From IMG/VR virus record IMGVR_UViG_3300034198_001823, positions 1-23,904 of that record: a DNA stretch of 23,904 bases; one strand, 5' to 3'. The notes beneath the pieces were generated by a model, which saw nothing but the letters and a program-made list of their open reading frames with translations, searched no databases and was not told the DNA's origin. This document shows, piece after piece, positions 1,440-19,568 of the stretch (position 1 is its first letter; every line of letters starts with the position of its first letter). This stretch comes from a virus. A program made the translations under genes and the position numbers.

Positions 1440-2443
1440 TACAAGTATTAGGCATAACCCAAAAAGGTAGTGGCTGCGGATGGCATAGAGTCACAATGCC
1501 GCTTGCGTATATGGATGATGCTTATAACCATGTTACTAATGTACCTAGCAAAGAAATACTAGAAGAGCGACGATTTGATATATTGTTATACAATAGGTTT
1601 AGTCCTTTTGATAATGCTTGGGATGAAACTAAGCAGCACTTTAAAGTTGTTTTAGACTTAGACGATGACTGGGAGTTACCATATAGCCACCCACTTTATC
1701 CATTTTATGAAGCGCAAAAAAATCGTTTATTAATTAACTTGCTTAACGCGGACCTTGTTACTTGCACTAACGAGCGCATTGCAGACAAAGTAAGTAAGTA
1801 CTGCAAGAATATTTTAATACTACCTAATTGCATACCACTAGGAGAGCAACAATACACCGACCATAGACACGAAAGCGATTTAGTTCGTATATTCTGGGCC
1901 GGAGGTAGCACACACCTAGAAGATATAAGGCTACTTGCTAATCCTTTAAAAAGGTTAACTGCGTCTAAAGGTTTTGAAATGATATTAGGTGGGTACACCG
2001 ATAGCGACCCAGTAAGTAAAGCTTATTGGGACCAAGTGCATAGTATGTTTACCTTTGGTGGAAAGTTTCCTAATAGAAAACTTGCAAGCACTTTGCCCAA
2101 TAATTATATGAGCCATTTTGAGCACGCCGACATAATGCTTATTCCTTTGCAAGAAAGCGATTGGCACGCGTGTAAAAGCAATCTAAAGATACTAGAGGCT
2201 GCAAGCAAACGCATAGCGGTAATATGTAGCCACGTCGAACCATATAGCAAAGATAGCGACGCACCGGTGCTTTGGGTAAAGACTCAAAGCGACTGGTATA
2301 AACATATAAACTATTTATTAAACAATCCACTAGAAAGGATAAAGCTAGGTGAAGACCTTTACGAGTGGGCAAAAACAAAGTACAACTATGAGTCAATCGG
2401 AGCAACTAGACGCGAAGCATTTGGAAACCTTGTTAAAGCATAA
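1436..2443 (+). CDS. GT-B fold glycosyltransferase (GT4-like)
   Basis: This 335-residue protein is a group-1/GT4-type sugar transferase. The N-terminal half has a Gly-rich start (GSGCGWHRVTMPL, 11-23), an acidic VVLDLDDDW strand (71-79), and a TNERIADKV/LPNCI linker (111-133) as seen before the second Rossmann domain. The C-terminal half begins at IFWAGGSTHLEDI (152-164) and contains ADIMLIPL (231-238) and CKSNLKILEAAS (246-257), the nucleotide-sugar binding region of this fold. Donor and acceptor cannot be read from sequence. Its ATG overlaps the upstream stop, and its 3' end overlaps the next gene by 56 bases. With the acyltransferase and GT2-like genes downstream, modification of a host surface glycan or of virion proteins is the likely role. 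Confidence 0.8.
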   Translation: MIQVLGITQKGSGCGWHRVTMPLAYMDDAYNHVTNVPSKEILEERRFDILLYNRFSPFDNAWDETKQHFKVVLDLDDDWELPYSHPLYPFYEAQKNRLLINLLNADLVTCTNERIADKVSKYCKNILILPNCIPLGEQQYTDHRHESDLVRIFWAGGSTHLEDIRLLANPLKRLTASKGFEMILGGYTDSDPVSKAYWDQVHSMFTFGGKFPNRKLASTLPNNYMSHFEHADIMLIPLQESDWHACKSNLKILEAASKRIAVICSHVEPYSKDSDAPVLWVKTQSDWYKHINYLLNNPLERIKLGEDLYEWAKTKYNYESIGATRREAFGNLVKA

Positions 2444-2630
2444 ACACTTCTACGATTTGTTTATTGTTTCTGGCGAGTTAGTAGCATTTACTAACGAAAT
2501 ACAAAACGAACTATTAGAGGTCATGCGCACACGTGATGCATACTATACGTATAACAACCGCTGCGGTGCTTGTATCGGAACCTTTTTAACTAACGTATAT
2601 AAAACATTCAATGAGCAACTTCATTCATAA
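2388..2630 (+). CDS. Small conserved-looking protein with CGAC motif
   Basis: The ATG at 2388 gives 80 residues; a GTG at 2349 in the same frame would add 13 residues but deepen the overlap with the glycosyltransferase gene. The product is mostly helical-looking (LDAKHLETLLKHKHFYDLF, then NEIQNELLEVMR), with RCGACIGTFL close to the C-terminus. The two Cys could bind metal or form a disulfide. I do not recognise a function. It overlaps genes on both sides (56 and 20 bases), so it is part of the coupled sugar-terminase operon. Confidence 0.55.
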   Translation: MSQSEQLDAKHLETLLKHKHFYDLFIVSGELVAFTNEIQNELLEVMRTRDAYYTYNNRCGACIGTFLTNVYKTFNEQLHS

Positions 2631-3096
2631 GACGGCCATAGTAGGGCCAAACGTAACACTTGGAGACAATGTTTATATTGGTCCTTATTGCGTAATAGGC
2701 GAACCAGCCGAACATAAGCTATTTTGGAACGCACCACTAGGCCAAGTGGTAATAGGCGACGACTGCGTAATAACTGGCCATGTAACTATCGACGCTGGTA
2801 CTACTGAAGTGACAACCATTGGCGCTGGTACATGGATGCTAAAGCATAGTCACGTCGGACACGATTGTAAAATAGGTACTAATGTAACTATAAGCTGCGG
2901 CGCAAAGATAGGTGGCCACACACGTATTGGCAACCATTGTAATATAGGACTTAACGCAGTCATTCACCAAAAGCAAGTAATAGCTCCGGGCTGCATGATT
3001 GGTATGGGTGCCGTTATTACACGTAAGCTTTATACAACACATTCCACAAAGTATGCTGGGAATCCAGCTAAAGAAATAGGAAAAAATATAATATAA
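2611..3096 (+). CDS. LpxA-like left-handed beta-helix acyltransferase
   Basis: This 161-residue protein consists almost entirely of hexapeptide repeats (I/V-G-x4 pattern: IVGPNV, TLGDNV, YIGPYC, VIGDDC, TIGAGT, KIGTNV, RIGNHC), which build a left-handed beta-helix. Residues 79-86 (HSHVGHDC) match the catalytic His-x2-His-Asp-Cys arrangement of LpxA, the UDP-GlcNAc acyltransferase, making H84 the likely general base. LpxA is about 260 residues with a C-terminal helical domain. That domain is missing here, so an O- or N-acyl/acetyl transferase on a sugar is more likely than true lipid A synthesis. The stop overlaps the next ATG by one base (TAATG at 3094-3098), tying it to the GT2-like gene. 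Confidence 0.8.
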   Translation: MSNFIHKTAIVGPNVTLGDNVYIGPYCVIGEPAEHKLFWNAPLGQVVIGDDCVITGHVTIDAGTTEVTTIGAGTWMLKHSHVGHDCKIGTNVTISCGAKIGGHTRIGNHCNIGLNAVIHQKQVIAPGCMIGMGAVITRKLYTTHSTKYAGNPAKEIGKNII

Positions 3097-3698
3097 TGAA
3101 AGTACTAATTGCCGGCTTAGTATATGGAGAAAGGCCAATAGACGCTTTGGTAAATAACCTAGCAAACTTAAATTATGAGGATGCTACCTTTTATGCTATA
3201 AATAAAGAAGGTATAGCAAACGCTATGAATGAAGCTATTGACATTGCTTTAATGGATGGCTTCGATGCGATTGCTTATTTAGCAAACGATATAATTGAGC
3301 CAGACAATTGGCTTAACAAAAAGGTAGAAGCTTTAAAAACTTATCCTAAAGCTGGCATTGTGGCAAGTAGTTTAGATAGGGTAAGAATTGGCATTAATAG
3401 TGAACACATTATAAGCAACTGGTTATTAAGTATGGACGTAGTTAATACAATAGGTATCTTCAATGAGTCAATGTTTCCGTATGGACCTATTGACTTAGAC
3501 TATTGCGAGAGGGCCAACCTAGCTGGATTTAATACTTACTATGTGAAAGATTGTCTTGCCGAACATTTAGGAGGTCATGCTAGCGGTAACGAGTATGGCT
3601 ACGACAAGGCCGAATTATTACAAAAGAATTGGTCTAAACATGAAGCGGATATAAAAGGCTATCGTGAAGGCACTAAAGATATAACAATATGGATGTAA
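3096..3698 (+). CDS. GT2-like glycosyltransferase (short)
   Basis: This 200-residue protein resembles the core of a GT-A fold, family 2 transferase. It shows AIAYLANDIIEPDNW (57-72), where the usual metal-binding acidic motif is reduced to Asn-Asp, then GIVASSLDRV (87-96) and GPIDLDYCERANLAGF (130-145), which corresponds to the acceptor/catalytic segment (E/D-x-D-x2-x-R) of the family. The usual N-terminal nucleotide-binding strand is shortened to about 40 residues. It could be active with a reduced metal site, as some rhamnosyltransferases are, or be a degenerate partner of the GT4-like enzyme. Its end overlaps the small terminase gene by 10 bases. Confidence 0.7.
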   Translation: MKVLIAGLVYGERPIDALVNNLANLNYEDATFYAINKEGIANAMNEAIDIALMDGFDAIAYLANDIIEPDNWLNKKVEALKTYPKAGIVASSLDRVRIGINSEHIISNWLLSMDVVNTIGIFNESMFPYGPIDLDYCERANLAGFNTYYVKDCLAEHLGGHASGNEYGYDKAELLQKNWSKHEADIKGYREGTKDITIWM

Positions 3699-4117
3699 GA
3701 GAAAGCGTAACAAGAAAGTTTAAAGACATAGACGAAGACAAACTAATGGAGTTGGCCTTTGCCTATTGCGACAATTGTATGATGGGACAAAAGCAAGTTG
3801 CTACCGGTAGCGGTAAGATAGTAGAAATACGCGACCGCTTTGTGCCGACAATAGATTACTTTTTAGACCATTGGCTTAGAAAGCATGACTTTGAATTTTA
3901 TACAAGAATGGGTCTTTGGAAAATTAGACAAGACCAGACACACCCTTATCATGAGGTGGCAAACAGAATAGTTACAATGTTTAAATCATTAGCTATTGAT
4001 ATTGTTGCTAACGAAGGTAAAGCTATTTTCTATGCTAAGAATGCATTAGGAATGACCGATAGGGCCATGACTGAGAATACAAACATAGACACCATCACAA
4101 TCAAGTATGAATCTTGA
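3689..4117 (+). CDS. terS: Putative terminase small subunit
   Basis: This is a 142-residue protein directly upstream of, and overlapping (11 bases), the large terminase gene. Near the C-terminus it has AIFYAKNALGMTDRA, close to the [I/L]-x-[W/F]-x-[A/L]-KN-x-G-x2-D segment found in many small terminases of the P22 gp3 type. The N-terminal half is helical, and FVPTIDYFLDHWLRKHDF could be the DNA-recognition or oligomerisation region. Small subunits recognise the packaging site and regulate the motor. The assignment rests on this motif and on gene position; sequence divergence in this family is high. Confidence 0.65.
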   Translation: MDVRESVTRKFKDIDEDKLMELAFAYCDNCMMGQKQVATGSGKIVEIRDRFVPTIDYFLDHWLRKHDFEFYTRMGLWKIRQDQTHPYHEVANRIVTMFKSLAIDIVANEGKAIFYAKNALGMTDRAMTENTNIDTITIKYES

Positions 4118-5273
4118 TATAAAGCTATGTAAGCCGCACCCAGCACAAAAGCAAGTCTTGGACTCCGACGCTCGTTTTAGGGTTATGATGTGTGGGCGTA
4201 GGTTTGGTAAGTCATTAATTAGTCAAAACATATCTATTGAGACGGGCCTACAAAGAAAGCACGTAGCCTATATAACACCTACTTACCAATTAGGTAAGAT
4301 GTTTTTTAAGGAAATATGTAAGCTTTTGCCAGATAAGGTTTATAAAAAGAACGAGACCGATTTACTTATCGACTTTGTTACTGGTGGCTCTGTAAGGTTT
4401 TATACCGGAGAGCGTTTAGATGCTATGCGTGGAACCAAATACCATTTAGTTATTATAGATGAGGCCTCGTACATACCTAATTTAGAAGAGGGATGGAATA
4501 ATAGTATAAGGCCAACACTTACCGACTTTAAAGGTAAGGCAATATTCTTAAGCACGCCACGTGGCAAAAACTATTTTTATAGCTTATTCATGCGTGGCGG
4601 TGAGCCTAACTGGGAGTCTTTTAAGTTTACTACTTACGATAACCCACATATAGACCCTACGGAAGTTGACGCAGCTGCGGCCCAATTGCCATCGGTAGTA
4701 TTTAAGCAAGAATACCTTGCAGACCCTATGGAGAATGCAGCCAACCCTTTTGGCTCCGAGTTTATCTATGCTTGCACTAAAGAGACTAAAGGCGTAGCGG
4801 CTTACTATGGTATTGACTTAGCTAAGTCGGTCGATTGGTCCGTTATAATTGGTATGGACAAGCAAGGTAATGTCGTGCATTTTGAAAGGTTCCAAAAAGA
4901 CTGGATGCAAACTAAAGAGACAATATTAAGGTTGCCAAAGAACATACCGATAGTAATTGACTCAACTGGCGTAGGAGACGCCATAGTAGAAGACCTACAA
5001 AAAAAGTTTAACAAAATGTATGGGTTTAAGTTTACGGCTACAAGCAAGCAGCAACTACTTGAGTCATTAAGTAGCGCTATACAGACTAAAAGCATTAGCT
5101 ATCCAGATGGACCGATTAAACAAGAACTAGAAGTGTTTGAATATACCTTTACACCAACTGGTGTAAGATACTCGGCACCACAAGGATTCCACGACGACTG
5201 CGTTATTGCTTTGGCTTTGGCTAACAAGTGCCGTATTGAGCACAAAGAGGTAGGCAAGTACCACGTTATTTAA
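4107..5273 (+). CDS. terL: Terminase large subunit (ATPase and nuclease)
   Basis: This 388-residue DNA-packaging motor has both expected domains. ATPase domain: Walker A GRRFGKS (30-36), Walker B LVIIDE (114-119) and the coupling motif LSTPRG (148-153). RNase H-like nuclease domain: first acidic residue in GIDLAKSVDW (D236), second in VIDSTGVGD (D284, with D290 near it), and the C-terminal HDD (362-364) expected for the last metal ligands. Length is on the short side but the gene is complete. The start overlaps the small-subunit gene. This is the firmest anchor for calling the contig a tailed-phage genome. Confidence 0.95.
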   Translation: MNLDIKLCKPHPAQKQVLDSDARFRVMMCGRRFGKSLISQNISIETGLQRKHVAYITPTYQLGKMFFKEICKLLPDKVYKKNETDLLIDFVTGGSVRFYTGERLDAMRGTKYHLVIIDEASYIPNLEEGWNNSIRPTLTDFKGKAIFLSTPRGKNYFYSLFMRGGEPNWESFKFTTYDNPHIDPTEVDAAAAQLPSVVFKQEYLADPMENAANPFGSEFIYACTKETKGVAAYYGIDLAKSVDWSVIIGMDKQGNVVHFERFQKDWMQTKETILRLPKNIPIVIDSTGVGDAIVEDLQKKFNKMYGFKFTATSKQQLLESLSSAIQTKSISYPDGPIKQELEVFEYTFTPTGVRYSAPQGFHDDCVIALALANKCRIEHKEVGKYHVI

Positions 5274-5292
5274 AAACTATATTTATAATAGT

Positions 5293-5931
5293 ATGAAGCT
5301 AACAATTGAGAAATTCCAAAAACTGCAAGACTTATCAATACTTGAGGAAAGCGAACAAGATAAGTCAAGCCGTATTATTCAAATACTCTTAGATAAAACT
5401 ATGGAGCAAGTGGATAAAATGCCGGAAAAGAAGTTTAATAAGCTTTGCTTAAGTATTAAAAACTTATTTGAATTAGAGGTTGAGAATGCAGTAACAAGTA
5501 AGCCGCAAAGATTAATTAAAGCAAATGGCAATTGGTATAGATTAAACTTTGAAATTAAAAGGCCTTTTAATGCTGGTAGGTATATAGAGGTCTTGACATT
5601 TAGTAAAGGCAATCCAATAGTTGATATGCACAATATCCTAGCTAGTATTTGCACACCTTTAAAATGGAGTTGGAAAAGGTTTAAATTAATCAACCAACCA
5701 TACGATGCGCTAAGCCACGAAAAATATGCAGACGATTTCAAGCAAGCAGACTTTAAACATGGTTATCATGCTATGGTTTTTTTTTGCATACTATTAACCA
5801 ATTTAACGAGCAATACAAGGGCTTATTCGGCTCAAGAAGTAATGAGGATAATGAGCAATCAAAAGAGGTTAAGAGTATTGAAGAGAAATTTCAAGAAGAT
5901 TTTGGATGGGTTTACAACGCATCAAAAGTAG
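5293..5931 (+). CDS. Tail-assembly-chaperone-like protein, zero-frame product
   Basis: This frame gives 212 residues. The first 164 look like a compact conserved domain: a helical N-terminus (KLTIEKFQKLQDLS), a YRLNFEI/RYIEVLTF beta section and DMHNILASICTPLKW, ending in KHGYHAMVFF. After the T9 run at 5777-5785 this frame becomes strongly basic and low in typical composition (RLRVLKRNFKK), while the -1 frame reads as normal protein. The natural reading is therefore a domain followed by a frameshifted extension, the gpG/gpGT arrangement of tail chaperones, which help load the tape measure during tail assembly. Size (164 + 94 residues in the fused form) and position before tail genes fit. I recognise the family only loosely. 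Confidence 0.6.
   Translation: MKLTIEKFQKLQDLSILEESEQDKSSRIIQILLDKTMEQVDKMPEKKFNKLCLSIKNLFELEVENAVTSKPQRLIKANGNWYRLNFEIKRPFNAGRYIEVLTFSKGNPIVDMHNILASICTPLKWSWKRFKLINQPYDALSHEKYADDFKQADFKHGYHAMVFFCILLTNLTSNTRAYSAQEVMRIMSNQKRLRVLKRNFKKILDGFTTHQK
5777..5785 (+). other. T9 slippery run: candidate -1 frameshift or transcriptional slippage site
   Basis: Nine T bases lie in codons GTT-TTT-TTT-TGC of the 5293 frame. Positions 5778-5784 form T TTT TTT, a perfect X-XXY-YYZ heptamer for -1 slippage, after which reading resumes with TTG at 5784 in the downstream frame. RNA polymerase slippage adding one U would give the same product, as would a one-base undercall of a true T10. No convincing downstream pseudoknot or strong stem is visible by eye. 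Confidence 0.55.
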
Positions 5932-6068
5932 CAGACTTTGAGAGAATACCACTAGACTTGGTATACGATTTGCCGGTAATACAATTTTTAAACGATTTGA
6001 GCTATTTAAAACAAAAACTAAGTGTAGATGAGTATCAACATAAGCAGCGCACAAAAGAAGGCACTTAG
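5784..6068 (+). CDS. Frameshifted extension of the chaperone gene (-1 frame)
   Basis: This frame encodes 94 residues joined to the upstream domain by a -1 shift at the T9 run; the TTG at 5784 is simply its first sense codon and probably not a real start. The sequence has an acidic linker (SNEDNEQSKEVKSIEEKF) followed by a conserved-looking segment (DFGWVYNASKVADF, then LVYDLPVIQFLNDLSYLKQK). Such a W-plus-LP-x-FLN-x-L pattern is a plausible T-type extension that contacts the tape measure. It overlaps the next gene by 41 bases. If the run is really T10, 5293-6068 would be one ordinary gene of 258 codons. Confidence 0.6.
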   Translation: MHTINQFNEQYKGLFGSRSNEDNEQSKEVKSIEEKFQEDFGWVYNASKVADFERIPLDLVYDLPVIQFLNDLSYLKQKLSVDEYQHKQRTKEGT

Positions 6069-6684
6069 CGAAGGTTTTGACTTTGGCGGTGAGGACCTAT
6101 CACAATTTGGAGTAATAAGTAATGTATTAGAGCAATATGGCAACTTGTTTCTTGAGAATATAGACAAGTATGCAGACGAATTAAGTGTTACCAGTAGTGG
6201 TAGCTTACTTAAGTCTATGAGTGCTGAAATCAAAGACTCTAATAACATTAAGTCATTCACACTCAAGCTTTTAGATTATTACGATTATCCAAACGAAGGA
6301 GTAAAAGGTGTTGATAGTAGCAATAACGCTCCCGACTCACCATATCAATACAAAAACTACGGAATGCCACCGGAGGCCCTAAGTAGCTTAAAAAAATACA
6401 TACTTAGTGGAAAAGCTAAAATTGCTAGTGTTAAAAATGACAAAGCACTAGGAATTGGACAAGAAAAGAAAGGATTAAAGCAAAGAGACAAAAAAGCACT
6501 TATAGAACGTCAAGTGTTGACTATGGCTTATTTGATTAAAAAATATGGTATTAAAGCAACGCACTATTTTGACCTAGCTTTTGAAGATACGTTTAAAGAT
6601 TTTGACGACGTAATGACAGAGGCGCTTGGTGAGGATGTGCAAATAACAATAGACTTAATGAGCAAGAAATATGGCAATAACTAA
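6028..6684 (+). CDS. Neck/tail-completion-like structural protein
   Basis: This is a 218-residue protein. The middle carries YDYPNEGVKGVDSSN and PYQYKNYGMPPEAL, and the end has QVLTMAYLIKKYGIKATHYFDLAFED. The pattern of a Ser/Leu-rich helical N-terminus, a 'GVKG' loop, a 'PY-x-YKN-GMPP' turn and a C-terminal 'I-x-KYGIKAT-x-[FY]-[FD]' helix is one I associate with small tail-completion or head-tail joining proteins of Bacteroidetes phages, distantly like HK97 gp10. The function is inferred from this and from its location among tail genes. It overlaps both neighbours (41 and 14 bases), so it is translated from the same mRNA. Confidence 0.5.
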   Translation: MSINISSAQKKALSEGFDFGGEDLSQFGVISNVLEQYGNLFLENIDKYADELSVTSSGSLLKSMSAEIKDSNNIKSFTLKLLDYYDYPNEGVKGVDSSNNAPDSPYQYKNYGMPPEALSSLKKYILSGKAKIASVKNDKALGIGQEKKGLKQRDKKALIERQVLTMAYLIKKYGIKATHYFDLAFEDTFKDFDDVMTEALGEDVQITIDLMSKKYGNN

Positions 6685-7807
6685 TTTAGCTTACCCAAGT
6701 GGTAGCCCATCGTTACAAGATAGCTTGTGGCACATTTTTGATAGCAACATTACAAGCACCGACTTAAAATATGTCGTTGATTTGTTCGTAGGCGGAGTGC
6801 AACAAGTAAGAGTTAAAATATATCCAGAGCCACTAAGTGGATTAGGTTATTTTGATGCTGGACCTATTGTTCGTAATACTATTACTTATCAATGGTTTAC
6901 ACCTAAAGAAGAGTTATTAGTTTGTGAGCCAAACGTAAGCGGTGAAGTAGCGCAAACTTACCAATATAGAATAGGTGATGAAGCAAGCGGTATAACTAAT
7001 TTAAATTTAGCTAGTGGTAATGTTACGGCTTATAATTGGACGGCTCCAGTATTTAAAAGAAAGGTAAGTGATATTAGCACTTATAACGGAAAAGCATTTA
7101 CTAATAGACCTAGCACAATTGATTTAAATTTAACAGATAATTTATACATAGGAGCTAAGCAAGTAAGCGGCGTAACTATTGCGACTTATAATGAAAGCAA
7201 CACATTAATAACCAGCACTAATTTAACATTAACTACATTAAGACAATTTGTTCAATTAAACATTGGACCTAATGCTTTAAATACAACTTACGGAAGTAGT
7301 TTAATAAATAGCTCGGTTAAATATTATATGGTTACAATTGGAACAAGTATTTTTAGAGTTAATGTTTTATGCAATCCAAAATATGAAAGTAATAACTTAC
7401 ACTTTATTAATCATTTAGGAGTTTTTGATACCGCCGTATTTGATTTATCTAGTAGGTTAATGATGGACGTACAAAGAAAAGGTTTTGAAAAAAGGGATTA
7501 TACCTATGGCGCAACGTCTGTTAATTACTTTGATGCTAATAAAAAATATGTTGATAGCAAAGTAAACTACTTAAATATTAAAGACCATAGTTATAAACTT
7601 ACAATGAATGCGCCAACAGACGCTGACTACGAATGGCTTGCAGAATTAATAGACTCACCTCAAGTTTATTTTGAGTTAGATGGTTATTATTATCCAGTAA
7701 GCATTAAGAATAATAATTACGAGTATAGTAAATACATAAATAATAGACTTAGAGTTTTTGAGGTTGAAATTGATATTAACCAAACGCGTTATAGCCAATT
7801 AAGATAA
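6671..7807 (+). CDS. Tail-tip (distal-tail-like) structural protein
   Basis: This 378-residue protein is rich in beta-forming residues, with Asn/Thr/Tyr-heavy strands, no signal peptide and no membrane segment. The middle contains YYMVTIGTSIFRVNVLC followed by LHFINHLGVFDTAVFDL, a segment I associate with a tail protein found beside hub-like genes in Bacteroidetes phages. The last part (APTDADYEWLAELIDSPQVY, then YYPVSIKNNNYEY) resembles the end of distal-tail or baseplate ring proteins. It stops two bases before the hub-like gene. A baseplate or tail-tip role is inferred; the exact position in the particle is not known. Confidence 0.5.
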   Translation: MAITNLAYPSGSPSLQDSLWHIFDSNITSTDLKYVVDLFVGGVQQVRVKIYPEPLSGLGYFDAGPIVRNTITYQWFTPKEELLVCEPNVSGEVAQTYQYRIGDEASGITNLNLASGNVTAYNWTAPVFKRKVSDISTYNGKAFTNRPSTIDLNLTDNLYIGAKQVSGVTIATYNESNTLITSTNLTLTTLRQFVQLNIGPNALNTTYGSSLINSSVKYYMVTIGTSIFRVNVLCNPKYESNNLHFINHLGVFDTAVFDLSSRLMMDVQRKGFEKRDYTYGATSVNYFDANKKYVDSKVNYLNIKDHSYKLTMNAPTDADYEWLAELIDSPQVYFELDGYYYPVSIKNNNYEYSKYINNRLRVFEVEIDINQTRYSQLR

Positions 7808-7808
7808 C

Positions 7809-10800
7809 ATGACAAGAATTTTTATTGAAGGATACGAACTGGATTTAACGCAAGGCATAAGTAATCAAATTACTTATGCTATTGATGATTTGCATAACTT
7901 AGATAGTAAAAGTACAAGCTTTAGTAAAACAATTGTATTACCCGGAACTGCTAAAAATAATAAGCTTCTAGGTAATATCTTTGATTTTAATAATGCAAAC
8001 TTTGATAATCCTTTAGAGCCTAACGTATTGCAAAACTTTAACGCAGCACGCAACGCCATTGCTCGTATTGAAGTAGACGGATTACAGATTATAAAAGGAG
8101 TTTTAAGACTACTTGAAATAATAAACTTAGACGATGCAATAGAATATGAGTGCGCAATATTTGGAGAATTAGGCGGATTTATTAACGCACTTGGAAATAA
8201 AAGATTAACTGGTAATGATAATCCTTTAGATGACTTAGACTTTAGTATTTATAACCATACTTATAGTTATGCTAATATTGTAAGTAGTTGGGACACGTCT
8301 GGTAGCACCGGTTATTGTTATCCACTTATTGATTATGGTAATGTTAGTACTGGAGCTTATGGTATTGCTAAAAAAGATTTTCAATACAATACATTTAAAC
8401 CAGCTTTATTTGTAAGAGAATATTTAAATAAAATATTTAATGCTAGCGGATATACTTACGAATGTGCTTTATTTGATACTACAATTTTTAGAAATTTAGT
8501 TATACCATGTAATCAAAAGATAATTACAAAAGAAACAAGTAACGTTCTTAACTTAACTAAGTCAATAGGTCAGTCAATGAATACTGGTGGCACGCAAGAC
8601 TTTATTAGTTATGAAACTAAAGTAGGTGCTTTATTTACTGCAAGTGCTGGTGATACTATATTTACTTATACTGGAACGCCAACATTAACAACAACTTTAA
8701 ATATTGAAATACAAGGAGAATATAGTTTAAGTGTAAGACCTTTAACAATAGCAGTACTTAAAAATGGTACAATTATACCCGGCTCAAGTGTAACATATAA
8801 TGGAAGCGATTTGCTTTATTATAATAAAACTTTGTCAGTATCACTAGCTACAAGTGACTCATTAAGAGTAAGGACAAGTCTAGTAATTAATGGGGGAGAT
8901 TTTGTGCAAGTTAATGAAAGTACAATAAGTATAATTAATAGCGTTGCAACAACTGCGCCAATTGGACTAGGTGAAACAATGCTTATAAATAATACTATTC
9001 CGAGAGGTATTTTTCAAAAGGATTTTGTTACCTCTATTATGAAAATGTTTAACTTAATGATTGTAGAGGATAAATATAAAACTAATCATTTAATAATTAA
9101 ACCTTATATAGACTTTTACGATGGTACTATTATTGATTGGTCCGACAAATTAGATAGGAGTAAACCTATTAAAATAAAACCTATGAGCGAAATAAACGCT
9201 CGATATTATAATTTTAAATTTAAGCAAGACAATGATTTCTACAATGAAGATTATACTAAGAAATTTAATGAGGGATATGGTGATAGGATATACGATAATG
9301 GTTTGGAATTTGCAAAAGATACTGAAAGCGTTGAAGTAATCTTTGCATCAAGTCCTTTATATGGTACAAATACAACAGATAAAGTTTTCCCAGCTATTTA
9401 TAAGAAATCTAGCGAAAATACAAAAGAGGACCCAATGGACCATATTATACGTATACTACAAGTAAAGAAATTAAGTGGTGTTGCAAGTTGGTCTATTTAT
9501 AATTTATTTACTAACTTAGGAAATAATACTAGTTATCTTTATGGTGGTCATTTAAACGACCCAATTACACCTAGCATAGATTTAAACTATGGGGCACCGC
9601 AGCAATTATTTTTTAATTTAACAAGTGGTAACTTAAGTAATAACTTATTTAATACTTACTACTCACCTTATATGTCGGAAATTACCGATAAAGATAGCCG
9701 TTTACTAACTGGCTTTTTTGATTTAAAACAACTTGATATTTATAATATAGACTTTGCTAAGTTTATTTATATAGATGGCGGATTATATAGAATAAGTAAA
9801 ATAAGTGATTATAGCACCGAAGGTAATGAAACTACAAAAGTAGAGTTATTACGTGTAATTGATAAGTTTACTATTGTTATTGATGTAACGCCAAATTGGG
9901 TAAGTCAAGGATTTAATACTTGTAGCAGTTGTGCTAATTACTTAGTTTATAGAGACATTAATCCAAGTAGCCCTACTTATAATAACTATCAAGTTAATGG
10001 AGTTAATGTAGGTAATACGGCTCCAGCAAATGGAAATTGTGTTACTACTGGATTTTGGACAAGTCAATCTTATACTACTTGTATTGATTGTGCTAATTTA
10101 GACGTTCAAAGAGACACTAACGCTTGTAGCGCAACATATAATCAATATAGAGCTGGAGGCGTTGTATTAGGCCTTACCGCTCCAGCAAGTGGCCTTTGTA
10201 ATGTAACACCTAATTTTGTTAGTCAATCTTATAATACTTGCGTTGATTGTGTTAATTATCTTGTTTATAGAGACACAACACCTTGTAGCCCTACTTATAA
10301 TAATTATAGAGTTAATGGAGTTAATGTAGGCCTTACCGCTCCAGCAAATGGAAATTGCGTTACTACTGCTACTTGGACGAGTCAAGCTTATAATACTTGT
10401 ATTGATTGTGTTAATTATTTAGTTTACAGAGACACTAATCCTTGTAGTGCTACTTTTAATAATTACCGAGTAAACGGAGTTAACGTAGGTAATACGGCTC
10501 CAGTAAATGGAAATTGCAATACTACTGCTACTTGGACAAGTCAAGCTTATAATACTTGCGTTGATTGTACTAATTATCTTGTTTATAGAGACACTAATCC
10601 TTGTAGTGCTACTTTTAATAATTATAAGGTTAACGATGTTAACGTAGGTAATACCGCACCAACAAACGGAAATTGTGTTACTACTGCAAGATGGGTAAGA
10701 GACGGCGATGAATTTTGTTTTAACTGCGTAGCTTATCAACCTCAAAGAGACACTAATCCTTGTAGTGCTACTTACAATACTACAAGAAATTTAAATCAAG

Positions 10801-11804
10801 GTGCATCTTCACCTTGCGTTTACGATGCTACTTGGACAAGTCAAGGTTATAATACGTGCGTAAGTTGTGTTAACTATTTAGTTTATAGAGATACAAATGC
10901 TTGTAGTGCTACTTATAATAACTACCGAGTAAACGGAGTTAACGTAGGTAATACGGCACCAGCAAACGGAAATTGTGTTACTACTGCTAATTGGGTTAAT
11001 AATGGAGCTACATTTTGTTCTAGCTGCGTAGCTTATCAACCTCAAATAGATAATAACCCTTGTAGTGCAACTTACAATACTACAAGAAATGTAAACTTAG
11101 GCGCTGCGGCACCTTGTAATTATACCGCAAACTATGCAACAAATGTAGGAAATTTATATGTGTGCAATGTTCCAAATGGTGGCGTTAATACATACATAGT
11201 ATATCAAAATACAAATGCTTGCTTTACTGGTAATCAATTCTATGCAAATGGTAATAGTTACGCAACTAATCCTAGTAATAGTTATCCAGATACTACACAA
11301 AATTGGGTTTCAAATGGTGCTAACTATTGCGTAGGTGTTGATTTATATCAACCTCAAAAACAAAATAATCCTTGCGCAGTTAATTACAATGGAGTAAGAG
11401 ACCAATTAATACAAGCTAATTCTCCAACTTGTTCCGAAAGTTATACAATGAGTAATTGCTTAGGTGGTGGCGGCACTACATATAGCGCAACTTACGTATT
11501 AGGTAGCTTTAGTATTAATGAGCGAGTAACAAGTAGTGGAGTAACTTATGTTATTACTGGTACTACAACGCCAACTGCGGGTATATCAATAACAACTACT
11601 GGATTAACTGGATGTCCACAATATACCCAGTTTACCGATTTATGTACAAGTGCAACTTATTACATACTTGGAACTGGTTATAGCAGCGTTGGAACAAGTA
11701 GCGACATACCGGATGCGTGTTTGCAACCAACCGGCACAACGTCAACACCAACTGGAACCCAAATATATAATTTCACTAGCAACCCAAGTTGTGAGTGTGT
11801 ATAA
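7809..11804 (+). CDS. Hub-like tail protein with ten Cys-rich C-terminal repeats
   Basis: This is a 1331-residue protein. The first 690 residues start with IEGYELDLTQGISNQITY and SKSTSFSKTIVLPGTAKNN, a beginning I associate with the tail-tip or hub proteins of Bacteroidetes phages. A later part (FVTSIMKMFNLMIVEDKY, residues about 404-421) resembles the hub domain that cradles the tape-measure end. From residue 694 there are ten repeats of 47-57 residues (see the repeat entry), each with Trp and two to four Cys, followed by a Thr/Ser/Gly-rich tail ending in CECV. The repeats look like an extracellular adhesive or spike region stabilised by disulfides. The gene sits before the tape measure rather than after it, unlike lambda-type phages. 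Confidence 0.6.
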   Translation: MTRIFIEGYELDLTQGISNQITYAIDDLHNLDSKSTSFSKTIVLPGTAKNNKLLGNIFDFNNANFDNPLEPNVLQNFNAARNAIARIEVDGLQIIKGVLRLLEIINLDDAIEYECAIFGELGGFINALGNKRLTGNDNPLDDLDFSIYNHTYSYANIVSSWDTSGSTGYCYPLIDYGNVSTGAYGIAKKDFQYNTFKPALFVREYLNKIFNASGYTYECALFDTTIFRNLVIPCNQKIITKETSNVLNLTKSIGQSMNTGGTQDFISYETKVGALFTASAGDTIFTYTGTPTLTTTLNIEIQGEYSLSVRPLTIAVLKNGTIIPGSSVTYNGSDLLYYNKTLSVSLATSDSLRVRTSLVINGGDFVQVNESTISIINSVATTAPIGLGETMLINNTIPRGIFQKDFVTSIMKMFNLMIVEDKYKTNHLIIKPYIDFYDGTIIDWSDKLDRSKPIKIKPMSEINARYYNFKFKQDNDFYNEDYTKKFNEGYGDRIYDNGLEFAKDTESVEVIFASSPLYGTNTTDKVFPAIYKKSSENTKEDPMDHIIRILQVKKLSGVASWSIYNLFTNLGNNTSYLYGGHLNDPITPSIDLNYGAPQQLFFNLTSGNLSNNLFNTYYSPYMSEITDKDSRLLTGFFDLKQLDIYNIDFAKFIYIDGGLYRISKISDYSTEGNETTKVELLRVIDKFTIVIDVTPNWVSQGFNTCSSCANYLVYRDINPSSPTYNNYQVNGVNVGNTAPANGNCVTTGFWTSQSYTTCIDCANLDVQRDTNACSATYNQYRAGGVVLGLTAPASGLCNVTPNFVSQSYNTCVDCVNYLVYRDTTPCSPTYNNYRVNGVNVGLTAPANGNCVTTATWTSQAYNTCIDCVNYLVYRDTNPCSATFNNYRVNGVNVGNTAPVNGNCNTTATWTSQAYNTCVDCTNYLVYRDTNPCSATFNNYKVNDVNVGNTAPTNGNCVTTARWVRDGDEFCFNCVAYQPQRDTNPCSATYNTTRNLNQGASSPCVYDATWTSQGYNTCVSCVNYLVYRDTNACSATYNNYRVNGVNVGNTAPANGNCVTTANWVNNGATFCSSCVAYQPQIDNNPCSATYNTTRNVNLGAAAPCNYTANYATNVGNLYVCNVPNGGVNTYIVYQNTNACFTGNQFYANGNSYATNPSNSYPDTTQNWVSNGANYCVGVDLYQPQKQNNPCAVNYNGVRDQLIQANSPTCSESYTMSNCLGGGGTTYSATYVLGSFSINERVTSSGVTYVITGTTTPTAGISITTTGLTGCPQYTQFTDLCTSATYYILGTGYSSVGTSSDIPDACLQPTGTTSTPTGTQIYNFTSNPSCECV
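9888..11438 (+). repeat. Ten tandem Cys-rich protein repeats (159/141-base units)
   Basis: Units start at 9888, 10047, 10206, 10365, 10524, 10683, 10824, 10983, 11124 and 11295. Six are 53-residue units of the form xxxW/F-x7-C-x2-C-x4-L/D-V-x-RD...PCSxTYNNY...VG-TAP-x-NGNC. Units 6 and 8 are a shorter 47-residue type with AYQPQ and a TTRN-x-N-x-GA-x2-PC ending, and the last two are degenerate. Units 3, 4, 5 and 7 are nearly identical in protein and closely similar in DNA, which implies recent duplication or gene conversion. Similar Trp/Cys repeats with 'RDxNPCSxTY' cores occur in secreted Bacteroidetes proteins, to my knowledge. Confidence 0.9.
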
Positions 11805-13838: not shown

Positions 13839-14867
13839 ATGGACTTACCTATTTACGAACTTAAGATTCAAGAAGAGTTGCAAGACGATGCCGAGGTTTC
13901 GTTTATTGCACTTGTAGACAAGCCGGCCATTCAGCGTGATTTTGTAGCATTTACTCAAGATTTTATACAACCAAATAAAGGCGAAGGCAAAGATGCATTT
14001 TTACCTAGGTGCATAAGCTATGTAATTAATGAAGGTAAAGAAAGTGAGCAAGCAGTAGCTATTTGTAATTCTATGTGGGAACAACACTTTGCAGCTGCTA
14101 AAGTTTCATTTGATTATGATGATACCTTAAGTACTGATAGGGGCAAAGAAATGGCTAAAAGAGCAATAGCAGCTGGAAATACGCTTTATATTATTTCAGC
14201 TAGACAAGATAAAGAAGGAATGCTAAGCGTAGCTAAAGAATTAGGCATACCAGAAAGCAGAGTTTATGCAACTGGCTCAAATAAAGCTAAAGTTGAAAAA
14301 ATTAAAGAACTTGGAATTTCTAAACATATAGATAATAATGCAGACGTAATTAAAGAACTTGGACCAATTGGCTCTAAGTTTAATTTTGAAATGTTTGCTA
14401 TTCAAGATGAAGATAAGCATATTATAAGTGGACCATTAATGTTAGCGGATAAACCTATTTATAGAAATAATAGCAAATTTGGAGAACATTATGTCGTATT
14501 TAGTGCCGACACTATTAAAGATATTGCGATTAAATTTAGCAAAAAAGGCTACCAAGGTAACGTTAATTTAATGCATGACCAAGATATGCAGCTAGATGGT
14601 CTTATAATGTTTGAAAGCTTTTTAGTTGATAAAGCTAGAGGTATACACCCAATGTCGGGGTTTGAAGATGCAAAAGATGGTAGCTGGTTTGGTAGCTTTT
14701 ATGTAGAAAATCAACAAGCTTGGGATTTAATTAAACAAGGTAAAGTAAAAGGTTTTAGCGTTGAGGGTTACTTTGAATATCCTACCGAAACTAAAGCTCC
14801 TACTTATGCAGAACAAAAGCTAGCAGAACTAGCAGAACTATTAAAAGTACCTTTAACACATAAATAA
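13839..14867 (+). CDS. XkdF-like prohead protease with inserted HAD-type domain
   Basis: This is a 342-residue protein of three parts. Residues 1-40 have the XkdF-like opening (EVSFIALVDKPAI). Residues 52-83 carry a Cys-containing motif (C58-I-x2-V-I-x-EG...QAVAIC76-x3-W80) found in phage capsid-region proteins. Residues 88-176 form a HAD-type phosphohydrolase-like domain: DYDDT (92-96), ISAR with S120, Lys149/151 and IDNNAD (164-169). Residues 180-320 return to the XkdF-like protease, with a likely catalytic His in LMHD (H246) and Ser in GFSVEG (S307). The enzyme should mature the capsid by cleaving scaffold or capsid subunits. It is followed by the scaffold-like gene and the capsid gene, the expected order. 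Confidence 0.75.
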   Translation: MDLPIYELKIQEELQDDAEVSFIALVDKPAIQRDFVAFTQDFIQPNKGEGKDAFLPRCISYVINEGKESEQAVAICNSMWEQHFAAAKVSFDYDDTLSTDRGKEMAKRAIAAGNTLYIISARQDKEGMLSVAKELGIPESRVYATGSNKAKVEKIKELGISKHIDNNADVIKELGPIGSKFNFEMFAIQDEDKHIISGPLMLADKPIYRNNSKFGEHYVVFSADTIKDIAIKFSKKGYQGNVNLMHDQDMQLDGLIMFESFLVDKARGIHPMSGFEDAKDGSWFGSFYVENQQAWDLIKQGKVKGFSVEGYFEYPTETKAPTYAEQKLAELAELLKVPLTHK

Positions 14868-14878
14868 TATATATAAAC

Positions 14879-15457
14879 ATGGAACAAGCACAAAACATTC
14901 TTAACAAAGTTTCTATGTTCTTTGCAGAACTTGTAGGAAACGAAGCAATGCCAATGCCTAGCGGAGAAACTGCGGCACCGGTAAAAATGATGCAAGCTAA
15001 ATTATTAGACGGCACCATTGTTGAAGTAAGTGATTTAGCAGTAGGTGGAATTGTTACTATTGATGGTCTACCAGCTCCGGTTGGTGAACATACTTTAGAA
15101 ACAATGGACACTATTGTTGTTGGTGACAATGGCGTTATTATGGAAATTAAGCCTAAAGTTGAAGATATGCCAACAATGGAAGTTCCAGTAGTTGAAGACA
15201 TGAGCGCAAAGTTTGCAGCTTTTGAGTCAGCAACAAACGAAAAATTCACCGCTTATGAGTCTAAATTTGCTCAATACGAAGCTAAATTAGGCCAAGCAAA
15301 CAAAGTAATTGAAGGCCTTATGCAAATTAGCAAAATGCTAGTTGAGGCACCACAAAGCGCACCGGATGCTGGTGTTAAAACAAGCAATGCTTTTGCAGAC
15401 GAAAAATTAGATGCAAAGAGCGAGTTCGAGAAATTCTCAAAATCAATTTGTTCATAA
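14879..15457 (+). CDS. Putative capsid scaffold-like protein
   Basis: This 192-residue acidic protein lies between the protease and major capsid genes, where scaffolds normally sit. The first third is helical. The middle is a small beta domain (AKLLDGTIVEVSDLAVGGIVTIDG...EHTLETMDTIVV...GVIMEIKP), a fold I associate with this position in Bacteroidetes phages. Residues about 108-150 form an Ala/Lys/Glu coiled coil (KFAAFESATNEKFTAYESKF). The C-terminal end is short and charged, with FEKFSKS. Coiled coils and a charged C-terminus are normal for scaffold proteins that bind the capsid subunit and are later cleaved or expelled. No catalytic motif is visible. A minor head decoration role is the alternative. 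Confidence 0.55.
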   Translation: MEQAQNILNKVSMFFAELVGNEAMPMPSGETAAPVKMMQAKLLDGTIVEVSDLAVGGIVTIDGLPAPVGEHTLETMDTIVVGDNGVIMEIKPKVEDMPTMEVPVVEDMSAKFAAFESATNEKFTAYESKFAQYEAKLGQANKVIEGLMQISKMLVEAPQSAPDAGVKTSNAFADEKLDAKSEFEKFSKSICS

Positions 15458-17083: not shown

Positions 17084-17455
17084 ATGTTGCATATTTATAA
17101 AGGTGTTGATAATAATTTAATATTTTCTGGCTTAGAATTGGCAACAATTACTAATCCGAAATATTTGTTTATTTTTACAAGTGCTACCGAACAAAATGTT
17201 ATATTTGTAGGAACTAATTTAAGTACTGACAATAGATATCAAAAAGTATTAGTATCAAAGTTGATATTTGAAAATCAAGAATGTGGCACTTGGAGGTATA
17301 AGATTCGCGAACAAGTAAGTGCTACAAATAAAAAAGAGGCCTTAAGTGGTGCCATAGTTGAGGAAGGCTTTATGTATTTGCATGAAGTAACAGATTGTGA
17401 AGACACGCAGTATGCGGAACAATGTAACGAATTTAAAACCTATTCAAGTGAGTAA
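17084..17455 (+). CDS. Small tail/baseplate accessory protein
   Basis: This is a 123-residue protein with no named family I can prove. It reads as an alternating beta-strand domain (LIFSGLELATITNPKYLFIF, then YQKVLVSKLIF), with a GTWRYKIREQVSA strand and a GAIVEEGFMYLHE ending. These features recall short Ig-like accessory proteins beside tail-fibre and baseplate genes in Bacteroidetes phages. The last 15 residues are Cys-containing and acidic (DCEDTQYAEQC). The coding end overlaps the portal start. It starts 13 bases after the hairpin terminator, so its mRNA probably depends on read-through. Confidence 0.5.
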   Translation: MLHIYKGVDNNLIFSGLELATITNPKYLFIFTSATEQNVIFVGTNLSTDNRYQKVLVSKLIFENQECGTWRYKIREQVSATNKKEALSGAIVEEGFMYLHEVTDCEDTQYAEQCNEFKTYSSE

Positions 17456-19568
17456 AGCTTATAACATTATTAACGTCCAATTTGACCAAGCGCAGCAACC
17501 TAAATTTGAAGAGAAAAGGGGCCGCAATTACATAGAATTTGGAGAAAAAAATAATTACCCTAATTACTTAATAGACCTTTATGGCGAAAGTCCAAAGCAT
17601 GGTGCTATTATTAAGGGAAAAGTAAATTATATTTATGGTAAAGGCTTTGAGGATATAAACCAAAAAGCTAACACCCATGGTGAAACATGGAATCAAATAT
17701 TAAAGCGTTCTATATTAGACGATGAGTTGCATGGCGGATTTTACTTACAAATTATTTATAATGCGCTAGGTAAGATTAAAGATGTATTTCATATTGAGTT
17801 TCAGAAAGTAAGAGCAAGCAAAGACTTGACTTGTTTTTATGTTAAGAATGATTGGACCTTAAGCGACTTTAAAGAAAAAGCTAGAGAATATCCGGCTTTT
17901 AATATTAATGAGCCTAAAGGCACTCAAATACTTTTTGTTAAGCAATATAACCCTAAGAGTGATGTTTACCCATTACCAAGTTATTTTCAAGGTTTAAACT
18001 ATATCGAGAGTGATATTCAAGTAAGTAGACACATTTTAGGTAATGCAAAGCATAACTTTGTCGCTACTAAGTTAATTAATTTTAATAACGGATTACCTCA
18101 AGAAGAGGAACAAGCCGACGTTGAAATGGATTTAAAACGTAAGTTTACTAATCACGATGGCGACCGCGTAGTTATTGCTTTTAACCCAAGTAAAGAAAAC
18201 GCAGTAGACATTGTAGACCTTGGAGAAACAAGTTTAACAAAAGAAGACTTTACTAATGTCAATAATTTAATACAACAAGAAATATTTAGTTGTCATCAAG
18301 TTACAAGCCCTATGTTGTTTGGTATTAAAACCGAAGGACAATTAGGAGGCCGTAGCGAAATAAGAGACGCATACCAGATATTCCAAAATACATATGTTAA
18401 CGAGCGCCAACAAGAACACGAGCAAACTTTTAGTAAGCTTATGAATTTAGCTGGCATACAAGGTGAACATACCATTATACCAGTTGAGCCGTTAAGCTTT
18501 GAATTTACCGAGGCTATTATGGCTGCTAACTTAACTAAAGATGAAATAAGAGAGTTAATGGGAAAAGAAGCTTTAGACCCAAGTATTAAAACACAAGCGC
18601 AAATCATTAGCGATAATATTAATTCATTAAGTCCATTAGTAGCTAATAAGGTTTTAGAAAGTATGACAAGCGACGAAATAAGAAGCTTAGCTGGTTTAGT
18701 CCCTAAAGATATTACAATAGATGCAAGTGGTAATACTATTACGCCACAACCAATAACGGCTGCAAATGAGTCTATTAAGAACTTAACCGGACGTCAACAC
18801 CAGAACGTAATGCGCATAGTGCGTCAATTTGCAAATGGTAAGATTAACAAGGCGCAAGCAAGCTTAATGCTTAAGAGTGGATTTGGATTTACCGACGACG
18901 ATGTTAATACTTTCTTAGGCGTTGACGATGACCCAGCAACCGAGCAAGCTTTTGCATCAATGCAAGACGAATTGTTATTAAGTGAGTTTGCAGCGTGTGG
19001 CGATAATGTTAATGATTTTGACGTATTAGAAACGCATGAAGCTAAAAACTTTGAACAATTTGCGGATGCTGAAATTAACAAATTAAAAGCCAACGTTTTA
19101 GACCTTATAAGCAAAGATAAGCGCATTACTCCGGAGACTATGGCGATTGTATTAGGTAAAGAAGTAAGTGCTATTAACGTGGCTTTAAAGGCCCTACAAG
19201 CGGAAGGTTATTTAAGTGTCATAGGTAGCGCAATAAATATATTAAATGCTAACTATAAACCTATTGTTCGTCAACTATTACAACCATTAGATAAGATTCC
19301 GGGTGGTGATAAAACTACAACGACCGAGGTGCTTTTAAGATATACTTACTATGGGCCAGAGGATGATAAAAACAGACCATTTTGCGCTAGAATGTTACAA
19401 TTAGCAAAGACTAAGGTTTGGAGTCGTGCTGACATAGAAAACATAAGCGAGCGTTTAGGTTACTCTGTTTGGGATAGAAGAGGTGGTTGGTTTACAGAAC
19501 CAAACGGAACACACCGACCATATTGCCGCCATCGTTGGAATGTAAAAATAGTAACTAGAAAAAAATAA
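17412..19568 (+). CDS. Portal protein with winged-helix-like segment and Cys/His C-terminal domain
   Basis: The ATG at 17412 gives 718 residues; GTG codons at 17397 (723 residues) and 17448 (8-base overlap with the upstream gene) are alternatives. The central part is portal-like: RNYIEFGEKNNYPNYLIDLY, KHGAIIKGKVNYIYGKGF, a long stem/clip region, and GQLGGRSEIRDAYQIFQNTY near the crown. After it come GRQHQNVMRIVRQFANGKI, then a winged-helix-like segment (about nt 19095-19230: VLDLISKDKRITPETMAIVL, then ALQAEGYL). The last 75 residues (YYGPEDDKNRPFC...PYCRHRW) resemble the C-terminal piece of Mu gpF/SPP1 gp7 head-morphogenesis proteins. The portal forms the DNA entry ring. It lies unusually far downstream of the capsid gene. 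Confidence 0.8.
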   Translation: MRNNVTNLKPIQVSKAYNIINVQFDQAQQPKFEEKRGRNYIEFGEKNNYPNYLIDLYGESPKHGAIIKGKVNYIYGKGFEDINQKANTHGETWNQILKRSILDDELHGGFYLQIIYNALGKIKDVFHIEFQKVRASKDLTCFYVKNDWTLSDFKEKAREYPAFNINEPKGTQILFVKQYNPKSDVYPLPSYFQGLNYIESDIQVSRHILGNAKHNFVATKLINFNNGLPQEEEQADVEMDLKRKFTNHDGDRVVIAFNPSKENAVDIVDLGETSLTKEDFTNVNNLIQQEIFSCHQVTSPMLFGIKTEGQLGGRSEIRDAYQIFQNTYVNERQQEHEQTFSKLMNLAGIQGEHTIIPVEPLSFEFTEAIMAANLTKDEIRELMGKEALDPSIKTQAQIISDNINSLSPLVANKVLESMTSDEIRSLAGLVPKDITIDASGNTITPQPITAANESIKNLTGRQHQNVMRIVRQFANGKINKAQASLMLKSGFGFTDDDVNTFLGVDDDPATEQAFASMQDELLLSEFAACGDNVNDFDVLETHEAKNFEQFADAEINKLKANVLDLISKDKRITPETMAIVLGKEVSAINVALKALQAEGYLSVIGSAINILNANYKPIVRQLLQPLDKIPGGDKTTTTEVLLRYTYYGPEDDKNRPFCARMLQLAKTKVWSRADIENISERLGYSVWDRRGGWFTEPNGTHRPYCRHRWNVKIVTRKK

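Follow-up and report, generated by a model that had tools for sequence, protein, structure and literature searches.

Why does the gene of a phage prohead protease contain a phosphatase-like domain, and what might such a domain do there? The question is raised by a stretch of viral DNA of 23,904 nucleotides (IMG/VR record IMGVR_UViG_3300034198_001823), here referred to as the window. Capsid proteases are usually regarded as assembly tools. A preliminary description, made from the window sequence, had proposed that a HAD-type phosphohydrolase domain lies between an XkdF-like N terminus and the catalytic part of such a protease and that it could act as an enzyme during assembly or might serve only as a spacer. 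Here, we compared the gene with its relatives and predicted its structure.

The HAD domain and its host protease

The open reading frame at positions 13839 to 14867 (342 amino acids; plus strand, as for all parts of this protein) encodes an XkdF-type prohead protease with a slot for additional modules. It matches PF14550 (Peptidase_S78_2/XkdF) at residues 185 to 311 with an E value of 2e-10 and a score of 41.1 bits, above the cutoff of 24 bits, and phrog_24921 with an E value of 9e-27. An N element of residues 1 to 40 (positions 13839 to 13958), which we delineated with our own HMM from 35+ relatives, is common to all architectures. In the protease core (positions 14394 to 14795), His246 (LMHD) and Ser307 (GFSVEG) do not vary among relatives (alignments A3 and A5). 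The protein thus resembles other XkdF/Peptidase_S78_2 prohead proteases in having a core with conserved His and Ser residues but differs from them by its N-terminal module slot. XkdF peptidases were treated as likely head-processing enzymes in a study of jumbo phages (PMC7824862). The window gene precedes candidate scaffold and major capsid genes; cleavage of capsid or scaffold proteins during assembly would be its putative role. A terminase and weak portal matches are also present in the window.

Between the two protease parts, residues 88 to 180 (positions 14100 to 14378) form a HAD phosphatase domain of ~92 residues with no cap insertion. Asp92 and Asp94 of motif I (DYDDT; positions 14112 to 14126) are kept in 145 of 145 unique relatives and Thr96 in 144 of them. 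Arg122 of motif II (I119-S120-A121-R122; positions 14193 to 14204), Lys151 as motif III (positions 14289 to 14291), and His163, Asp165, Asn166, and Asn167 of motif IV (HIDNNAD; positions 14325 to 14345) are kept in all 146 unique HAD sequences. The position of Ser120 holds Ser or Thr (alignment A6), and that of Asp169 holds Asp or another residue, with Asp169 or an acidic residue one position further on in most members. In HAD relatives outside the XkdF-type protease gene, stand-alone copies included, the catalytic residues are likewise kept. The family is large, with relatives encoded by more than 500 stretches of the viral collection, of which the best 80 were listed in each of two lists. 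The median pairwise dN/dS was 0.22 for the HAD domain, a value indicative of purifying selection, and 0.03 for the protease core. The reading frame, its coordinates, the order of the motifs, and the placement of the domain were correct in the preliminary description. For motif III it had offered Lys149 or Lys151, and only Lys151 holds, because position 149 is not conserved and is often Ser, Thr, Gln, Ala, or Glu.

An AlphaFold2 model of the isolated domain, built with 47 relatives, was of high confidence (pLDDT of 97.3 and pTM of 0.90). A Foldseek search of the PDB placed KDO8P phosphatases at the top (E value of 4e-4), and VIA aligned the phosphatase of T4 Pnkp over 97 to 98 of 99 residues (Z score of 11.5; 2.1 Å), followed by phosphoserine phosphatase (Z score of 11.3), AphA (9.7), and MDP-1 (8.9). 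Degenerate catalytic residues in homologues or a match to another fold had been named beforehand as findings that would speak against a HAD assignment. No degenerate residues were observed and the fold is consistent with HAD, though Rossmann-like chains of universal stress proteins also score high, with VIA Z scores of up to 11.8, the general Rossmann-like layout being common to both. Since these folds score equally high, the fold alone is no proof of a HAD domain, and it is the motifs that supply the proof. We do not favor a universal stress protein identity, as it is the HAD residues that are conserved; a dehydrogenase/Rossmann identity (ADH_zinc_N, 0.001) was ruled out, since this match is below the cutoff and the HAD motifs are invariant. 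Weak matches to PADLOC defense families were judged to be due to chance.

With single-sequence HMM searches, the window domain gave only weak matches (phrog_4256, 3e-4; Pfam HAD, 0.07), and individual members of the wider family matched phrog_4256 with values as good as 1e-10. Of 24 such members, 12 matched the nucleotidase family phrog_8630 (best, 1.3e-6), 10 matched the 5'-nucleotidase family PF06189 (best, 2.5e-5), and 5 matched the polynucleotide kinase family phrog_415 (best, 1.6e-4); none of these matches was shown to exceed a Pfam cutoff. The window domain itself did not reach the curated Pfam and NCBIfam cutoffs (Hydrolase_3, 13.3 of 20.9 bits; NCBIfam, far below). As these models describe specific subfamilies, the missed cutoffs bar filing in a subfamily and not in the HAD superfamily. 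The domain is a predicted, intact phosphomonoesterase. Because the nearest annotated families are nucleotidases and a polynucleotide kinase, we infer that the substrate could be a nucleotide or a nucleic acid end, which is a guess from remote similarity. In capless HAD phosphatases, the accessible cleft admits macromolecular substrates (PMC11164532).

Two other proteins of the window are of note in their own right. A portal-like protein (positions 17397 to 19568), whose Phage_portal match is below the cutoff, has a winged-helix-like stretch at residues 562 to 606 (HTH_24; E value of 0.003, below the cutoff). This stretch separates the portal core from a C-terminal part containing Cys, His, Arg, and Trp and is possibly a further embedded module. 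A protein of 1,331 amino acids with many repeats of the TWTSQAYNTCVDCVNYLVYRDTNPCSATFNNYRVNGVNVG type (positions 7809 to 11804) is probably a tail or fiber protein.

Exchange of modules in the protease slot

Proteases whose N and core parts are ~90% identical vary in the content of the stretch between them. In the window, the HAD domain is preceded by a module termed M (FLPRCIS..AVAICNSMWEQHF; positions 14001 to 14089), a predicted two-helix hairpin with two Cys residues (AlphaFold2 helices at residues 51 to 64 and 69 to 83) that is present in some relatives and absent from others. The slot is empty in L030, L033, and L034; holds M alone in L020 to L029, L031, and L035; M with a domain termed Y in L004 to L007 and L032; Y alone in L017; M with HAD in the window and L019; and M-Y-HAD in L018, a more distant relative. 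Further contents, at other loci, are a Cys-rich module (CPxATQDI) and a zinc ribbon, and combinations occur. The Y domain, as in L004 (positions 187 to 1230; YNDYPESAKNNA..CATQVGKVRAQQ..CGTISYLLWGG), matches phrog_2859 and has no Pfam match; the Cys-rich module of L070 (positions 2356 to 3753; CPVATQDI..NLKNR), of about 120 amino acids, occupies the same slot.

At the DNA level, the HAD cassette behaves as a unit (positions 14093 to 14393). BLASTN homology between the window and its close slot relatives (81 to 87% identity) breaks off at about 13960 or, with M-only and M-Y relatives, at 14092 to 14101 and restarts at 14394 in nearly all comparisons and at 14376 to 14393 in three. HAD is absent from phages whose flanking DNA is about 85 to 96% identical. 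In the pairs L099/L223, L081/L209, and L049/L236, the flanks are 91 to 97% identical, and one member has the insert where the other has 8 to 14 bases. Identical core proteins even occur with unlike inserts, namely, L223 (M) and L099 (M-HAD), L051 (M-HAD) and L069 (M-Y-HAD), L068/L060, L020/L004, and L203/L202. A maximum-likelihood tree of 138 N-plus-core sequences, which is blind to gain versus loss and for which sampling was skewed to HAD-bearing and close sequences, requires at least 23 state changes of HAD, 27 of Y, and 15 of M. Since this place is empty or taken by other small domains in near-identical phages, the slot resembles a docking site for interchangeable cargo, which could be packaged in the viral head.

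The full-length AlphaFold2 model is weak (pLDDT of 74 and pTM of 0.49), with M, HAD, and protease modeled as distinct units connected by linkers of low confidence at residues 30 to 49, 82 to 84, and 182 to 184, the latter two with a pLDDT below 50. Flexible linkers thus flank the HAD domain on both sides. Foldseek searches with this model returned HAD and Rossmann-like folds together with unreliable long alignments, and no protease was among the matches listed. Phe-Ala is present at 54 of 54 M-HAD borders, 14 of 16 M-protease borders, and 46 of 58 HAD-protease borders, compared with 51 of 2,518 interior windows (2%); the border count is no independent evidence because some of these residues came by descent with M and the core. 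At the borders, Phe-Ala may be a trace of recombination or a site of cleavage. The candidate scaffold gene, which comes next after the protease gene (positions 14879 to 15457), encodes four Phe-Ala sites versus about one expected, two of them as KFA, resembling the module linkers; the sites are possible protease sites.

Other homes of the HAD domain

The HAD domain is not confined to the XkdF slot. Upstream of terminase genes, it occurs as a stand-alone gene, either by itself or together with Y. Fusions join it to S78 prohead proteases (L198; PF04586, E value of 5e-23), to portal-XkdF fusions (L037 and L162), and to a portal alone (L118); in L036 and L167, it lies downstream of the protease part. 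A scan of genome contigs gave one locus, in a Bacteroidetes MAG (L119), where the domain overlaps the end of a protease gene. We also noted a stand-alone gene that combines HAD and Y with an M-like part directly upstream of terminase genes (L112; positions 2866 to 3588) and a stand-alone HAD relative in cultured Flavobacterium elemo phages, which grow on strain BAL314; in one of them (L285; positions 3977 to 8255), it is in a tail gene region near the GroES and GroEL genes.

Exactly one copy, fused or stand-alone, was present in 31 of 31 HAD-bearing records. Genomes with a stand-alone HAD have an XkdF protease without an insert or an S78 protease: among 17 records with a stand-alone or S78-fused domain, 11 have an XkdF reading frame of 195 to 239 amino acids and 6 have an S78 protease. 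Conversely, 15 of 16 long records of insert-less XkdF relatives lacked HAD, and one had a stand-alone copy; as the records may be fragments, such absences are no proof. According to these counts, the HAD function can be provided by a separate gene, is dispensable for some relatives, and is not duplicated.

Possible roles and relation to known systems

The reading that we favor, and regard as probable, is that HAD is an active but dispensable phosphatase of the nucleotide or nucleic acid type that is an exchangeable cargo of head proteins, probably within the procapsid. It builds on what sequence comparison brings out, namely, the fold, invariant catalytic residues, linkers, clean presence or absence, swapping, single copy, and fusion to head proteins; activity, substrate, packaging, and injection are extrapolations from there. 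The fused phosphatase would be carried into the procapsid as the protease, or the portal, enters and would perhaps be released at the linkers through self-cleavage of the protease. It could then act in or near the head or enter the host along with the DNA, where it might help early on by trimming phosphate ends or nucleotides or by blunting a defense. Fast module turnover fits conflict-driven change, and stand-alone copies need not reach the head. It is conceivable, if rather doubtful, that the protease is a general carrier whose slot takes up, in exchange, small modules with enzyme or binding functions that enter the procapsid with it, are cut free at the Phe-Ala linkers, and are injected as early and fast-changing counterdefense or takeover effectors, of which the phosphatase would be one.

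HAD could instead be active as an enzyme in the cell that produces the phage, with the fusion merely securing late coexpression and no delivery to the next host. Stand-alone copies upstream of terminase genes and, in elemo phages, near tail genes are in line with this, as is the finding that fused and stand-alone forms substitute for each other; however, the fusion partners observed are head proteins (XkdF, S78, and portal), which would be odd if location were irrelevant, and we consider this explanation unlikely. The options of the preliminary description missed the exchangeable-module pattern. Close relatives without HAD contradict the idea that assembly requires the domain. A role of the domain as structural spacer or as regulator of the protease, its catalysis being irrelevant, would agree with its position between two protease elements and with some insert being present in many relatives. 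This is very improbable, since HAD swaps with unrelated modules of very unlike sizes, can be absent, and also occurs alone or fused elsewhere, and since its catalytic residues are invariant, stand-alone copies included. We see just as little likelihood, or slightly less, that the modules are selfish or nearly neutral insertions of little benefit to the phage that recombine at a short shared border sequence (TTTGC, Phe-Ala): the very high turnover and the recurrence of Phe-Ala at borders are expected from such inserts, but purifying selection and invariant catalytic residues over hundreds of copies are not.

Several known systems are related in part. The polyvalent phage proteins described by Iyer et al. 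in 2017 (PMC5512222), for which packaging and injection were predicted, combine several small domains of unlike activity in one polypeptide of portal-terminase phages, and the window protein does the same with two functionally unlike domains, HAD and protease. Their assemblin-like peptidases are always C terminal; the window modules differ in being internal, between the protease N terminus and core, and in swapping between near-identical phages. In the main text of that study, neither XkdF nor phosphatase is mentioned and no HAD domain is described. Its predictions would be a precedent, by analogy, for HAD as protease-borne cargo, and so would MuF effectors. MuF polymorphic toxins of temperate phages (PMC5576092) likewise join a variable domain to a head protein, but there it is a C-terminal toxin on a MuF domain, whereas the window has an XkdF protease with an internal phosphatase-like module, and neither a toxin nor an immunity gene was identified with it. 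With the 3'-phosphatase domain of T4 polynucleotide kinase, HAD shares the fold, over 97 residues, and the DxD arrangement; at 16% identity, it is shorter, has DNNxD as motif IV, lacks a kinase domain, and resides in head proteins. Fusions of a DNA methyltransferase and a prohead protease in Rhizobium phages (phrog_1530) also set an enzyme domain beside an XkdF-like protease, but the enzyme is another one.

Neither the HAD enzyme family nor the notion that head proteins can bear accessory domains is new. The preliminary description knew of no described function for the HAD-protease pairing, and our search of openly accessible journal articles likewise found no description of it, nor of the slot in XkdF, of the turnover of that slot between near-identical phages, or of HAD as slot cargo. 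Searches against PDB sequence profiles gave nothing significant. The pairing is already in public data under automatic names, as the best structural match in BFVD is a 335-amino-acid protein named XkdF with 78% identity.

In summary, the natural pairs of phages with 91 to 97% identical flanking DNA, with and without a module, make module function directly testable, and a fast-turning slot for enzyme modules within a protease would let phages load proteins into the head.
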